A stretch of 64,000 nt of DNA from NCBI RefSeq assembly GCF_024227435.1, contig NZ_CP100445.1:1237369-1301368 (forward strand). The letters are read 5' to 3'. A program made the translations under genes and the position numbers. How positions within the stretch are numbered: the first letter of the stretch is position 1; the number at the start of each line of letters is the position of its first letter. Positions 5,383-64,000 of this stretch are shown in pieces. The stretch comes from Natrinema caseinilyticum. Lineage in GTDB: Archaea; Halobacteriota; Halobacteria; Halobacteriales; Natrialbaceae. The notes under the pieces were generated by a model, which saw only the letters and a list, made by a program, of their open reading frames with translations, was not told the DNA's origin and did not search any database.

Positions 5383-6378
5383 TCAGGGACGCGGTGCGGC
5401 CTTCTGCAGCGCCGTTTCCGCGATATTCCCGCCGTAGTCGGCGCTTCTGGACAGCGAGTCGACGATCAGCCCGAGCGATTGGGCCTGCACCGGGTCGAGG
5501 TCCCGAAGCATGTCGTCTATCTGTCGGGTGTGTTCGTCGATTTCGAGGACGGCTTCGCGGGCGTCGTGGCCGAGCCGGGTCGCCTCGTTGGTGTCGTCTG
5601 CGAACAAGGCGTCCATCGACGTTTCCAGGACCACCGAGGTATCCGCCTGCAGGTCCGCGAGCGCGTCGGCGACCGACTCGGGAATTTCGTCGAGTTTGAG
5701 CGCGAGGTTGCTGATCTTCGTCGCGTGGTCGGCGACGCGTTCGAGTTGGCGGGCGCTCGAGTGGAAGTCGAAGCAGTCTTCGCGAGGGACACCGAGTTCC
5801 TCGGCCGCGCGCGGGGACCGAAGGGTCGCGCGGAAGATTCGCGAGACGACCAGCCAGAGGCGGTCGACGTCGTCGTCGCGCTCGATGACGTCGTGGGCGA
5901 TGTCGTCGTCGTTCTCGATCAGTGCCCGAACGGCGTCCTCGAGCATCGATTGGGAAATCAAGCGCATACGCGTGACGGCGTTGACGATCGACAGTTCGGA
6001 GGAATCGAGGAGGTCCTGGATGACCACGCTGTCCGTCGTCTCCTCGAGCACCTCGACGCCGACCAGTCCCTGCGTCGCGCTGCGGATCGCCCGTCGCTGG
6101 TCCGTCGTGATTCGACCCGCCTCGAGCCGGATAATGTCGAAGCCGCTGACGTACATGGTCATGACGGCCCGGGTCAATCGTTCGCCCTCCAGATTCGAGA
6201 CGTCGAGCGTTCCTTCCTGCCGGTGTGACTCGCTCTGGGGAGTCAACAGGAGGGTGTCGTCTTCGGGATAAAATTCGACGGTCGTGCCCGCGCTGACCTC
6301 GTTTTCGGTCGCCCACGTTTTGGGGAGCGAAACCGTGTACGTCGACCCGCCCGTCACCTGCACCTTGCGTGTCTCCAT
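5383..6378 (-). CDS. phoU: Phosphate regulator with AbrB and PhoU domains
   Basis: This encodes 331 residues. Residues 1-45 (METRKVQVTGGSTYTVSLPK onward) form a SpoVT/AbrB swapped-hairpin DNA-binding domain. The remainder is a PhoU-type helical repeat with conserved acidic clusters (HDVIERDDDVDRLW and RQLERVADHATKIS). In haloarchaea this fusion is the presumed transcriptional regulator of phosphate uptake. It stands divergent from the first pst operon across a 546-bp control region, and its own promoter carries a variant of the motif found before each pstS. The ATG at 6378 is chosen because the AbrB domain starts there and a TATAAATATA-like box precedes it; upstream codons are low quality. 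Confidence 0.9.
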   Translation of the reverse strand: METRKVQVTGGSTYTVSLPKTWATENEVSAGTTVEFYPEDDTLLLTPQSESHRQEGTLDVSNLEGERLTRAVMTMYVSGFDIIRLEAGRITTDQRRAIRSATQGLVGVEVLEETTDSVVIQDLLDSSELSIVNAVTRMRLISQSMLEDAVRALIENDDDIAHDVIERDDDVDRLWLVVSRIFRATLRSPRAAEELGVPREDCFDFHSSARQLERVADHATKISNLALKLDEIPESVADALADLQADTSVVLETSMDALFADDTNEATRLGHDAREAVLEIDEHTRQIDDMLRDLDPVQAQSLGLIVDSLSRSADYGGNIAETALQKAAPRP

Positions 6379-58302: not shown

Positions 58303-59082
58303 GTGATCGTCGTCGCCACGTCCGATTTCGAAGTGTACCACGGCGTCGTCAACGAGCTCCGCGACCGCGGGACGGCGTTTACGACCGTCGAGCCGGACGA
58401 GGAACTGCCCGAACGGACGACCGTCGTCGTCACCGGAACCGACGACGCCGACTCCTTCCCAGGCGTGACGACGATCGTCGCGGATCCCGACGACCCCCGA
58501 CGCGCGGTCGATCAAGCCATGGCGACGATTCGTGGCGGCGGTGGCCGAACGATCATCGGCGTCGATCCGGGTCAGAAACCCGGGATCGCCGTTCTCTCCG
58601 GCGAGACGATCGTCGCCGCCTTCCAGGTCCCCCTCGGCGATGCGGTCGACGTCGTCCAGCGCGAAGTCGCCGAAGCGCCATCTCCGGTCGTCCGGATCGG
58701 CGACGGCTCCCGCCTCGAGGGCGCGAGACTGATCACCGACCTCGGGGACGTTCGGGTCGAACTCGTCGACGAAACGGGGACGACACCCTACCTCGGTACC
58801 GGATCGCGCGGGATGGGCGACGTGTTAGCCGCGGTCAACATCGCCCACCGGGAGGGCGAGGTCGTCGACGCGCGCGAGATAGAGCCGACGGAGGGGGAGA
58901 TTCAGGTCATCAAAGATCGGTCCCGCGAACAGAGCGACGGGAATCGGGCAATCGACGACGTTCTGGCCCGCCGGGTCGCTACCGGCGAGTTGAGCATCGA
59001 CGAAGCGCTCGTCGAGCACCGTGACGACGGCACCGGCTCGCCGTCCGAGTCGACCGACATGGACGATTCCGGCGAGTCGTAG
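58303..59082 (+). CDS. Conserved archaeal protein with RNase H/RuvC-like fold
   Basis: This 259-residue protein has an N-terminal Rossmann-like part (VIVVATSDFEVYHGVVNELR) and a domain beginning TIIGVDPGQKPGIAVLSGET, where DPG-x-KPG-x-A is the first strand of a RuvC/RNase H fold. A later DVLAAVNIAHREG may supply acidic residues. It is annotated in relatives as a hypothetical or predicted nuclease; activity is unproven. GTG 58303 follows ACGTTTATTC (58269-58278), a TATA box at the proper distance. It is divergent from panB. Confidence 0.75.
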   Translation: MIVVATSDFEVYHGVVNELRDRGTAFTTVEPDEELPERTTVVVTGTDDADSFPGVTTIVADPDDPRRAVDQAMATIRGGGGRTIIGVDPGQKPGIAVLSGETIVAAFQVPLGDAVDVVQREVAEAPSPVVRIGDGSRLEGARLITDLGDVRVELVDETGTTPYLGTGSRGMGDVLAAVNIAHREGEVVDAREIEPTEGEIQVIKDRSREQSDGNRAIDDVLARRVATGELSIDEALVEHRDDGTGSPSESTDMDDSGES

Positions 59083-59325
59083 TCGTCTCGAGTGCCATCC
59101 CGGTCGCCGACGCCGAAGCGGACGCCGCCGGCCGCGAGTCGATGTACTGGATACGGCGGCGATTTCGGCTCCGCAAACCAGAGTCGAGTGACAGCGTCGT
59201 CACCGCCACCGGGGCTCGGGGGACAACACACCGAGATGTGCCGCTCTCGAGGGGAACGGGGAATCGAAAAAGAAACGGAAACCGTCGGTCACGTCGGTCG
59301 AAAATCGACCGTGTGACGAATCGGG

Positions 59326-60882
59326 TTACGCGCCAACCCAGGCGTTCGTCGCTGAGACGGACGTGAACTGCACGTTCTCGTTCTCCTGCAGAGTCACCTG
59401 CGAGCTACTCGCACTCCCGCCGTCTTCCGCGACTGCGACGGAGGTGTGTTGCTCGTTGACGTTCTGCTGGGTGATGAACTGGGCCTGTTGGATCGCGGCA
59501 CTGGCCTGCTGATCGACGTCGTTCGTCTGCATCGCCTCGGACGCGTAGTCGTACGACATACCGGGGTTCTCCATCCCCGAGTTGCCGTCGACGGTCACCG
59601 TCGTACTCGAGGTTCGGGTAACGTCGTCGGAGACGTAGCCCGGACTCGCGTAGACGTTGAGCGCGGTGGCGTATGCGACCTGCGCGTTGTAGTTCGTCTG
59701 GTACGCGAGTTGGACAGCGGTGGCTTCGCTATCGTTCTGTGCGATGGCCAGGGCGCTGTTCTGCAGGTTGACGTTCAGCTGTTCGACGCCCTGCTCCTGG
59801 GCCACGCCGGCGGTCGCGGTCTGCTCGATGCCGTCTTTCTTGTCCTTCTTGTCCGGTTGGGTCGGCTCGACATTCTGCGAGAGGATCTCGCCGCTGACGT
59901 CGCCCGCGGTCGCGACGCTCATGCCGGGACTGGACGCCAGGAGGTTCGACGCGCTGGCGCTGGCGATTTGTTCGTTGAGGTTGCTCTGGTCGGTGAACTG
60001 AATCGCCGTGGCGGTGCTTCCCTCGCCGACCGCGATGGCGACGGCACCGTCCTGCTCGTTGATGTTCGCCTGTTCGACGTCCTGTTGCTGCGTGACCGTC
60101 GCCTCGGCGCTCTGGCTGGCGGACGAGTAATCGCCCGACTTGTCCTTCTTGTGACCGAATTCACCGTCACCGAGGTAGACGTTGGACGCGTTCGCGTGCC
60201 CTTCCTGCAAGTTCTCGTTGCGCTGGTAGGACTGCTGGAGCGCGGTCGCCTCGCTGTCGTCGACCGCGAGGGCGAAGGCGGTACTCTGGTTGTTGTAGTT
60301 CGCCTGCGCGACCTCTTGGGACTGCGCGACGGAGGCGATGGCTTCCTGCGTGATCGTCTCCTTATCTCCCTTCTTGTCCTTGACCGCCCAGCCGTCGAAC
60401 TGCTGGTCGCCGCCGTCACCGATGATGATGTTGACGTTCCCAACGTTCTCGAACTGGGTCTGGGCGCTTCGAACGTCGATGTTCTCGGCCGTGACCTCGC
60501 CGTTCTGTACGTTGTCGTTGTACTGGTTCGACTCCTGAATCGCGGTCGCGTCACCGCCGTCGATCGAAATCGACACCGCGGAGCCCTGTTCGTTGATGTT
60601 GACCTGATCGACGTCCTGGTACTGGATGACTTCGGACGCGGAGTCAGCCGTATCGCCCGCGTGCTGGTCGACGTACTCCTCGAGCGACATGTCGCCGAGG
60701 TCCGCGCCGAAGACCAGATACAGTTCTTCGCCGTCGTTGAGCGCGTGTACCGTTCCGTTCTCGAGATCGCCGTCGCCACCTGCGGTAGCTGCCGGAACGC
60801 CGGCACCTATCATGGCAAAGGCGACCATACAGGTCATAATGAGTGTCGTAGTTCGTGACCGTCTCGTCGTGTCGTTTGTCAT
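59326..60882 (-). CDS. Secreted protein with five curlin-like repeats
   Basis: This 518-residue protein has a Sec signal peptide (TTTLIMTCMVAFAMIGAGVP, cleavage near ATAGG). Residues 40-80 form a small domain (NGTVHALNDGEELYLVFGAD), followed by five repeats at about 83-137, 181-236, 259-315, 357-412 and 460-514. Each repeat has the form QxQxVxQxNxNxQ, then AxAxxxxxxATAxQ, then QxNxNxQ, for example QEVAQANYNNQSTAFALAVD. The linkers hold lysine clusters (KDKKGDK, HKKDK, DKKDKKD). The alternation fits a beta-helix or amyloid-like fibre. It lies beside two related secreted proteins. There is no anchor or sorting motif. Confidence 0.82.
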   Translation of the reverse strand: MTNDTTRRSRTTTLIMTCMVAFAMIGAGVPAATAGGDGDLENGTVHALNDGEELYLVFGADLGDMSLEEYVDQHAGDTADSASEVIQYQDVDQVNINEQGSAVSISIDGGDATAIQESNQYNDNVQNGEVTAENIDVRSAQTQFENVGNVNIIIGDGGDQQFDGWAVKDKKGDKETITQEAIASVAQSQEVAQANYNNQSTAFALAVDDSEATALQQSYQRNENLQEGHANASNVYLGDGEFGHKKDKSGDYSSASQSAEATVTQQQDVEQANINEQDGAVAIAVGEGSTATAIQFTDQSNLNEQIASASASNLLASSPGMSVATAGDVSGEILSQNVEPTQPDKKDKKDGIEQTATAGVAQEQGVEQLNVNLQNSALAIAQNDSEATAVQLAYQTNYNAQVAYATALNVYASPGYVSDDVTRTSSTTVTVDGNSGMENPGMSYDYASEAMQTNDVDQQASAAIQQAQFITQQNVNEQHTSVAVAEDGGSASSSQVTLQENENVQFTSVSATNAWVGA

Positions 60883-61567
60883 TGATCGCGTGATTTGTGT
60901 CGTGATGGTCTTTCGTTTCTCAATCTATACGACGCAAACCATCGTATCCGTATGAGTGACTTTGTTATCGACAGGTTGGATCCCGTATGCGACGGCCTAT
61001 TGATCCGAAGGGCGCTGCTTATGCGGAGAAATCGTCGCCTTCGGTCGGCTCGCGACCGGCGTTGCCGTATCGATTTCCTCGGTCGGTTTCACGCGGAACT
61101 GCGCAATTGCGAGGCGAAAACGCGACGTTCCGGACCCAGATCGGCCCACTCCGAGGACCGTTTCGAAAATGGAATCAGCGCGTTTCTGTTCAGTCGACGC
61201 CTGTCGCGTAGCATACATCGAATATTTCGGGGACGGCACGGGCGGATCGGCCGATGAAACTGCCGGCGACACGTACGATAGGGTCGTCGTTTCGACGACA
61301 AGTTTCCGACTACCGATGATGAACGGTCCGGTGGTGTCCATTAGCGGTCTTGTAGGCCGGTCTAATACCGTGTTCGTCCTGAAACCATATTTTGGGTTCA
61401 AATGGTCGTCTCTCGACAGCGACGACTGGGCACCGCGCCACAGCAGGGCCCGGGAGACGAGCGAACCCGCGTGATGAGTGACTGCGCCGTCACTCGGGGT
61501 GCGCCCTCTCCGATGGCAGATTCCCCTGTACGTGGTCGGTACGCGCACTGCCCGACACTACCTAACA
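60883..61567. other. Divergent region between the curlin-like genes
   Basis: A TATA-like GTATAGATT on the minus strand (60922-60930) serves the leftward gene. Bases 61380-61400 (CCATATTTTGGGTTC) are AT-rich. A weak rightward frame, 61169-61474 (MESARFCSVDACRVAYIEYF), has near-normal composition, but no features support it. Confidence 0.45.
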
Positions 61568-61927
61568 ATGAAACGCACGATCACAACTCTGCTGGCGGTC
61601 GCATTGATCGGGAGCCTGTGCATCGCGGGCTTCGCAGGATCGGTCTCCGCATCCGCTGTAGATGATGACGGCGGAGACGAAGTCAATCAGGGCGCTATCG
61701 CGATAGTCGAGCAGGATCAGGACGTTAGTCAGAACAACGTCAACGTACAAGAAGATGCGATAGCAGTCGCCGTCGGCGTCGGCAGCGGTGATGTCGAGGC
61801 GGAGGCGGAACAGGAGAACGAGCAATCGAACGCCAACGCGCAGATCGGTGAGGCCGAGGCCGAAAACGAGATCGAAGACAGCTTCAACGACGATAGCTAC
61901 AACGAAATTCCGTGGCTCTTGAGGTAG
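61568..61927 (+). CDS. Small secreted protein with one curlin-like repeat
   Basis: This 119-residue protein has a Sec signal peptide (MKRTITTLLAVALIGSLCIA, cleavage near SVSA). The mature part holds one repeat (EQDQDVSQNNVNVQEDAIAV, then AEQENEQSNANAQIG), followed by an acidic stretch and the end NEIPWLLR. The signal peptide resembles that of the protein encoded at 62929. It may be a minor or nucleating subunit of the same assembly. ATG 61568 begins the signal peptide. Confidence 0.8.
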   Translation: MKRTITTLLAVALIGSLCIAGFAGSVSASAVDDDGGDEVNQGAIAIVEQDQDVSQNNVNVQEDAIAVAVGVGSGDVEAEAEQENEQSNANAQIGEAEAENEIEDSFNDDSYNEIPWLLR

Positions 61928-62928
61928 CACAACCGAAGTGACTTCCTCCGATTTTTCGCGCGACTTGCAGCCGTACTCGGATGTCCAGCGACCGCGAGCG
62001 ACGGTCGAAAAATCGGTCCCAGTTACCTCGAATCGATAGCGTAAGACCGCTAAACTGCGTTTTGCGTCCGCTCGATCCGTCACACCGACGTGTAAGGGCG
62101 GTAACCAAACACCGAGAGGTCGACACGCTCGTCTCGAGAGGATCATCACGCGGCGGCGCGCGATCGAAGACAGACTCCCGACGGCGGACGACCGTCCATC
62201 TTCGGTTCGAGAACGACGGCTCGAACTGCGATCCGCACTCGACGCTTCGACGTCCTCGCAGTCGCACCCCCCAACCGACCCTCGTCGACGCTCGCGGCCG
62301 TGACGCAAATTTCGTAGCCCTCGCCGCCGATCTCGAGGCCCGAGGTCGGGGACCCCCAATTCGCGCGGCCGTCGCGCTTGCAACCAAGGGAGTCGAACTA
62401 CCTGCGGTTCGCATCGTCTCCGAGACGTGACAGAGTCGAGACTTCCCTTCCGACGCGGGAAGGTTGAACCCAGACGTCGGGCGACCCAACGGAACTCGAT
62501 GCCGATACGTCGGTGACTTCCCTGTAGCAATCGAATAGACGGTATCAACGTCATCATACGTCGATGCCGGGAATTCTAGGAGGAGATAGCAGTGTGTAAT
62601 CCGTACTGAAGGAGAACCGTAGAACTGATATCCATATTATACTTCCGTTCCAGATTTCGCGATTAATGTCATCATTTCGTAATTCAATACAGTAATCGAT
62701 ATCGTCCGTTGTAGCGCGCGAATATCCCTCTGAACGGTATTTGGCCTTCATATGGGCGGCTGAGGACGATTTCGACTGGGAGATGCGCCACAGTGATATG
62801 GGTGCTCGTGGTGACACGGGTTGCAACTGGCACGATAGTTTGCGCCGATCCGTGTCCGATCGGTTAGCGTCGAATTCCCATAGTGTACGTGTGCGCAGAC
62901 CCGGAAAACACAGAGATCTACCCAAACT
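61928..62928. other. Kilobase gap between two secreted-protein genes
   Basis: No convincing gene. Bases 61980-62520 are GC-rich but give arginine-rich frames only. Bases 62570-62760 are AT-rich; a minus-strand frame ending at 62554 (MKAKYRSEGYSRATTDDIDY onward) has plausible composition but no recognisable features. Confidence 0.45.
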
Positions 62929-63702
62929 ATGAGACGGACAATCACGATACTACTGACGCTCGCACTCATCACCAGCGCGGCGTTCGTCGGACTCGCTGGG
63001 ACGGCAGCTGCGGGCGGTACAGACGACGATCACAAGGACTACGGAGATTCTGACGATCTCCGATTCGCAGATATCGACATCGATCAGTCGCAAGGCGTCT
63101 CGCAGACGAACGCGATCGAGCAAAACGCGGCTCAGGTCGCCAATCAGGAGGCGACCGGAATCGATATCGGCGAAATAACTGACGGCGATGATGGAGACGA
63201 TGGTGATGGAAACGATGGCACTGACAGCGTCGACGGCATTCAGACCGTCGAGTTCTACCAAAACGATAATCTGTTCGTCAGATTCCGGTGGACTGGCCAA
63301 ATGTTCGTCCCCACCGAGGGGTCGCAAGGTGCTGTCGATCTACAAGCGACCACATTCAACGAGGATGGCGAACCGACGGCAGCCGAGTGGAGTGTCCAGG
63401 GTGGCGGTCCACAGCTAGATTACGCAATCGTTCAATCGAACGGCGAGCAGTGTCGGTTCGACATCAGCGAGGGCCAGTTGAGCGGAACAGTGACCGCCTG
63501 TGAACCGACCAACGGCGACGGTAACGGCAACGGCGACGGTAACGGTGACGGCGCCGGCGACGGTGACAGTTTCACCGGCACCACTGGCGATCAGACGATC
63601 AACCAGGTTATCGAGCAGAACGCCGACGCGGACAACGCGAACTCACAGAACGTCGACGCGTCTGCCTGGAACGGCGATGTCACCGCGCTCTTCGCCGGCT
63701 GA
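62929..63702 (+). CDS. Secreted protein with curlin-like ends and an inserted domain
   Basis: This 257-residue protein has a Sec signal peptide (MRRTITILLTLALITSAAFV, cleavage near TAAAGG). Residues 47-80 form one repeat (DIDQSQGVSQTNAIEQNAAQ) and residues 220-250 another (GDQTINQVIEQNADADNANS). Between them lie an aspartate-rich linker, a beta-rich domain of about 90 residues (VEFYQNDNLFVRFRWTGQMF to GTVTACEP) with two cysteines, and NGDGNGNGDGNGDGAGDGDS, resembling calcium-binding Asp/Gly repeats. It may be an adhesive tip or binding member of the family. Confidence 0.8.
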   Translation: MRRTITILLTLALITSAAFVGLAGTAAAGGTDDDHKDYGDSDDLRFADIDIDQSQGVSQTNAIEQNAAQVANQEATGIDIGEITDGDDGDDGDGNDGTDSVDGIQTVEFYQNDNLFVRFRWTGQMFVPTEGSQGAVDLQATTFNEDGEPTAAEWSVQGGGPQLDYAIVQSNGEQCRFDISEGQLSGTVTACEPTNGDGNGNGDGNGDGAGDGDSFTGTTGDQTINQVIEQNADADNANSQNVDASAWNGDVTALFAG

Positions 63703-63733
63703 ACGCGTCGTTCTCGGCTGAATTCGACATCGC

Positions 63734-63740
63734 TTTTTTT
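63734..63740 (+). terminator. T-run terminator after the third secreted-protein gene
   Basis: Seven T follow 32 bases after the stop codon at 63700-63702. This fits an archaeal U-tract terminator. Confidence 0.55.
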
Positions 63741-63921
63741 ATCGTGGCGCTCGAGCCCGGACCGATAGCCGGTCGTTCGATGCCAACTGAACGGGAGTCG
63801 ACGAGCGATCTGCGTCCCGAGAACGGATCGACGGGGCAGGTCGACGGCGGAGCCGCGCGGCCGTACTGTCGCGCTCGAGGCGCTCGTCGTCCGTCGAACG
63901 TGACTCTCACCGCGATGGCGG

Positions 63922-64000
63922 TCACTCTGCCCCGTCGTCGGACCGGACGAGCCGTTCCGCCCGTTCCATCACGGTTCGAATCGGGAGCCCGGTCTCTCGA
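63922..64000 (-). CDS. C-terminal end of a gene continuing beyond the window
   Basis: On the minus strand the frame from the window edge reads RETGLPIRTVMERAERLVRS, then DDGAE and TGA at 63922-63924. Its acidic, helical end looks like a real haloarchaeal protein C-terminus. The identity cannot be told from 25 residues. The gap 63703-63921 holds only the terminator. Confidence 0.5.
   Translation of the reverse strand, partial: RETGLPIRTVMERAERLVRSDDGAE

Follow-up and report, generated by a model that had tools for sequence, protein, structure and literature searches.

Haloarchaeal biofilms are known to stain like amyloid, and in the literature found no gene has been shown to be responsible. 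The window considered here, the whole stretch of 64,000 nucleotides that was analysed, comes from a haloarchaeal genome of 4.77 Mb and encodes a protein with five repeat units rich in glutamine and asparagine (Q/N). The locus raises the question of whether this protein is a structural component of such a matrix, and to which of the characterised amyloid systems, curli among them, it is comparable. The five-unit family supplies a definite gene for this question, together with candidates for a minor subunit and for a regulatory element. The features of the major gene are as follows.

59326 to 60882, reverse strand: major gene, secreted five-unit Q/N-ladder protein of 518 aa (open reading frame and orthologues)
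60781 to 60882, reverse strand: putative signal peptide, residues 1-34 (MTNDTTRRSRTTTLIMTCMVAFAMIGAGVPAATA), judged from the sequence by eye
60472 to 60642, reverse strand: unit 1, residues 81-137 (pattern; strands in AlphaFold2 model)
60172 to 60342, reverse strand: unit 2, residues 181-237 (pattern; strands in AlphaFold2 models of the whole protein and of two units)
59935 to 60108, reverse strand: unit 3, residues 259-316 (pattern; strands in AlphaFold2 models of the whole protein and of two units)
59647 to 59817, reverse strand: unit 4, residues 356-412 (pattern; strands in AlphaFold2 model)
59335 to 59505, reverse strand: unit 5, residues 460-516 (pattern; strands in AlphaFold2 model)

The full unit pattern, QxQxxxQxNx[NQ]xQ-(14-20)-QxxxQxNxNxQ, occurs five times in the 518-residue protein, starting at residues 87, 187, 265, 362 and 466, and is absent from 20,000 shuffles of the mature protein. 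The first-pass annotation, which had placed five Q/N repeats at 59326-60882, is therefore correct in both coordinates and motif. Each unit, 57-58 residues long, is made up of two half-units about 28 residues apart that both end in QxNxNxQ, giving ten half-units in all; the half-pattern is observed 10 times against a mean of 0.0036 per shuffle of the mature protein. Since linkers of variable length intervene, the units are spaced 78-104 residues apart and do not follow each other head to tail. The units contain 14% Q, 11% N, 17% A and no K, and the linkers are rich in G, D and K. Identity between units, calculated over half-unit blocks, is 27-54%, which identifies them as old repeats and not the product of a recent duplication.

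Orthologues of the five-unit gene have been identified in 32 of 60 related genomes, and 47 named loci carry it in genera such as Natrinema, Natrialba, Natronorubrum and Halopiger, which we take to belong to the Natrialbaceae. In the class as a whole 85 of 391 genomes have a match, 79 of them in the family of the window; at least 20 genomes of that family are without one, and in a phylum-wide sample the five-unit family is matched in this family only. Three other haloarchaeal families of the order contain five distant relatives in all, each of which can also be read as five units, and a sixth match outside the family (G376) covers an N-terminal stretch alone (E=8e-5). No Pfam or NCBIfam family matches the protein and no sequence relative is found in the PDB, where the search returned just a weak match to PhoQ (E=0.1).

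An alignment of 210 units from 42 proteins reveals conservation of 91-100% in the Q/N columns, mostly of 99%, and small core positions that are mostly at least 80% Ala, with variable positions in between and linkers that differ in length across the 42 members. The alternation of Q and N with small residues noted at first pass is thus a property of the whole family. Such a combination of invariant Q/N and variable neighbours would be expected from selection on inward-facing ladder residues. A signal-peptide-like N-terminus is present here and throughout the family, as the earlier description of a secreted protein requires, and is of the Tat type (RRxxLKG) in the distant members; a PGF-CTERM-like C-terminal anchor is found in some relatives. 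Both the anchors and the Tat-type signals indicate a location outside the cell, and an extracellular protein is strongly implied by these sequence features.

Structure prediction, one of the checks proposed at first pass, gave units that are all-beta. The AlphaFold2 model of the whole protein, built from a 42-row alignment, has five beta-rich units with core pLDDT of about 85-93 (pTM 0.54) and linkers below 50 that are modelled as disorder. The two-unit model has a mean pLDDT of 71 and a pTM of 0.44, and the overall arrangement of the units is of low confidence in the AlphaFold2 models. Stacking of successive units through Q/N ladders is likely, at odds clearly better than even. The composition rich in Q, N and A and the low-confidence linkers could also be taken to indicate a low-complexity sequence without an ordered fold, which is very unlikely because Q and N are conserved by position while their neighbours vary, and the strands of the units are confident in the model. 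The five repeats are real, conserved and ordered.

Foldseek searches against the PDB and viral models, together with VIA-align, yielded no significant fold match, and a VIA search for a Greek-key-like match gave none at Z of at least 2. Two FapC structures took ranks 1 and 2 in Foldseek with the two-unit model, at the non-significant E-values of 0.19 and 0.48. FapC has been found experimentally to consist of ordered repeats with flexible linkers, in which conserved Asn and Gln hold each layer (PMC12392863), and this layout is that of the AlphaFold2 model, with its ordered units and disordered linkers. Like FapC/FapB, the family is secreted, has a few imperfect Q/N-rich repeats with flexible linkers between them and has a second repeat-bearing subunit encoded nearby. 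FapC usually has three repeats of 38-39 residues with the motif GNxGxNxaaGxxNqQN (PMC12392863), whereas here five units of 57-58 residues with another motif, compared by eye, are present; the Fap proteins are encoded in a fapABCDEF cluster, and none was seen among the flanking genes scanned. In its imperfect Q/N repeats and flexible linkers the protein resembles FapC more than curli, and FapC is the closer architectural comparison.

The curlin-like character suggested at first pass has been retained as a possible mode of action similar to that of functional amyloids and not as a relationship to curlin. Comparison with Pfam PF07012, also proposed at that stage, produced no match to the protein up to E=10 and nothing above the cut-off in its own genome; hhalign of CsgA against the five-unit family found nothing, and with the unit HMM E. 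coli CsgA and CsgB obtain negative scores (-1.9 and -3.5 bits). CsgG and CsgF were both searched for and are absent from the genome. The flanking genes, scanned for dedicated export factors, are instead ordinary housekeeping genes (pantoate hydroxymethyltransferase, Rad51/RecA-like, CBS, nickel insertion and Cdc48-like). With CsgA/CsgB the protein shares secretion, periodic columns of Q and N that alternate with small residues, a major and a minor subunit and, in the case of E. coli CsgA, the number of five repeats. Curli repeats, however, average 23 residues and are without long linkers (PMC10192328), and the spacing in the present protein is indeed not the canonical one, as had been remarked from the sequence. 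Acquisition of a true curlin by the archaeon is hardly credible, having failed on every feature tested (PF07012, unit HMM, hhalign, CsgG and CsgF). The earlier remark that no curli-type system is described for this group is roughly right, apart from a passage in Dueholm 2012 (PMC3521004) on a single archaeal protein, given without a name, whose curli-like repeats are regularly spaced.

We know of no cell sheath reported for these Natrialbaceae genera. Amyloid-like extracellular coats have archaeal precedents in the sheath protein SH of Methanospirillum and MspA of Methanosaeta (PMC10593813, PMC7582709), and anchored forms exist among the relatives of the five-unit protein, which is likewise archaeal and extracellular. 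SH and MspA are components of methanogen sheaths. A role in a sheath or an S-layer-associated coat is quite unlikely for the five-unit protein, whose sequence matches none of the solved structures. The biofilm matrix of Haloferax volcanii stains with Congo red and thioflavin T (PMC4180959) and is a haloarchaeal, amyloid-like matrix whose protein was not identified in that study; the five-unit family, in contrast, is found almost only in the Natrialbaceae. A literature search combining haloarchaea and functional amyloid found no paper in the collection covered.

Upstream of the major gene a divergent partner gene and a conserved element have been identified.

60883 to 61567: divergent intergenic region of 685 bp between major and minor genes, of similar length in most relatives
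60960 to 60969, reverse strand: conserved candidate promoter element GATAACAAAG, 87 bp 5' of the ATG of the major gene
61568 to 61927, forward strand: minor gene, secreted protein of 119 aa with one complete unit (profile and HMM match)

The 119-residue protein matches the two-unit family profile with an E-value of 2.5e-13 and the unit HMM with 51.5 bits, the best shuffle reaching 6.4. A divergent, small, secreted Q/N-rich gene lies upstream of the five-unit gene in 39 of the 45 loci with enough upstream sequence, usually at a distance of 550-720 bp, and 52 of the 53 such genes in the loci are upstream and divergent. Many of these neighbours match the unit weakly, with non-significant HMM scores, so that for the diverged ones position, signal peptide and composition are the grounds for homology.

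In 33 of 36 intergenic regions GATAACAAAG is found 85-99 bp 5' of the ATG of the five-unit gene (87 bp in 21, 99 in 6, 86 in 4, and 85 and 98 in one each) and is expected by chance 0.01 times in the window. Many of the intergenic regions have more conserved blocks (CGCGTTGCCCGG and AACGGTTTCG) closer to the start of the minor gene. An Rfam search of 59000-64000 found no RNA family, and a search of the literature for the element sequence as text gave no relevant paper among the matches listed.

GATAACAAAGYC occurs 66 times in 41 genomes of the family, where the reversed control occurs 9 times. In a sample of 30 genomic sites, one taken from each genome, in which orthologous sites do not count as independent events, 24 precede genes of surface-glycan type (12 hexapeptide acyltransferase, 10 Gfo/Idh/MocA oxidoreductase, 1 glycosyltransferase and 1 phosphodiesterase), and the remainder precede the five-unit gene (2) or other genes (4). 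Before Gfo/Idh genes the element is in most cases 36 bp from the ATG, and it may be either a promoter core or the site of a regulator. In the window's own genome (L157) two sites 11 kb apart, at 5572 on the forward and 16962 on the reverse strand, enclose hexapeptide acyltransferase, DegT aminotransferase, Gfo/Idh, UDP-sugar dehydrogenase, glycosyltransferase and epimerase genes, presumably a surface-glycan pathway. Three genomes (G033, G088 and G089) have element sites at glycan genes and no five-unit match. The element is therefore primarily that of the glycan genes, and the five-unit gene shares it. From its sequence context GATAACAAAG is a candidate for the common element of a matrix regulon in the Natrialbaceae that would comprise the five-unit gene and the surface-glycan cluster. 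The five loci of other families have, within the stretch examined, no small partner and no GATAACAAAG; the partner is therefore not essential to the unit pattern.

The presence of a partner bears on whether the units stack within one molecule or between molecules. A folded, non-polymerising beta-solenoid, in which the five units stack in a single capped chain to form a rigid surface stalk or a glycan-binding adhesin without fibres, is a serious possibility, though at well under even odds. It is favoured by the unit number fixed at five across the family, by the PGF-CTERM anchors and Tat-type signals of different relatives and by the presumed co-regulation with glycan genes, which would suit a glycan-associated surface protein. 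Tat exports folded proteins, and the Tat-type signals of the distant relatives call for caution with the fibre reading, as they are no less compatible with a folded monomer than with an assembling one. Assembly between chains, on the other hand, is suggested by the divergent one-unit homologue and the corresponding genes at 39 of 45 loci, and the window protein has no obvious cap, unit 5 stopping two residues short of the C-terminus.

We favour, with a probability of about 0.5, a secreted surface or biofilm-matrix structural protein that would work like a functional amyloid together with a minor subunit and be co-regulated with surface polysaccharide. The fibre or matrix role, at about even odds, rests on the design, the partner gene and the shared element. 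Each unit would fold as one beta-arch layer, and the five layers would stack with Q and N side chains as hydrogen-bonded ladders around an alanine/valine core, the linkers looping out of the stack. Open edge strands could permit end-to-end addition of molecules into fibres, which the one-unit partner may nucleate, cap or join, and protein and glycan made together would form the matrix; relatives with a PGF-CTERM would keep the protein attached to the cell. That these components constitute a new archaeal functional-amyloid system, with a five-layer major subunit, a divergent one-layer minor subunit and a promoter element shared with a glycan cluster, independent of curli and Fap, is a tentative proposal that we hold somewhat short of even odds. 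If true, this family and the bacterial functional amyloids would have come by the imperfect-repeat Q/N design independently.

A further small gene has been noted downstream of the minor gene.

62929 to 63702, forward strand: probable second minor gene, secreted, 257 aa, with half-unit-like ends flanking an acidic insert (by eye)

Its product scores 6.1 bits with the unit HMM, which is not significant (shuffled maximum 8.5), and the assignment, made from sequence features, is probable and the weaker case of the two. The domain inserted between the half-unit-like ends has two cysteines, and similar genes are found in L041 and L043. In L069, L071-L074 and L080 the small upstream genes, which adjoin the C-terminally extended or anchored group of five-unit proteins, have a very high content of Q, N and D, and little of the unit can be recognised in them. 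Natrinema gelatinilyticum (L034, 2791-7326) encodes four small Q/N-rich secreted proteins in a row opposite the five-unit gene, where the other loci have one or two such genes.
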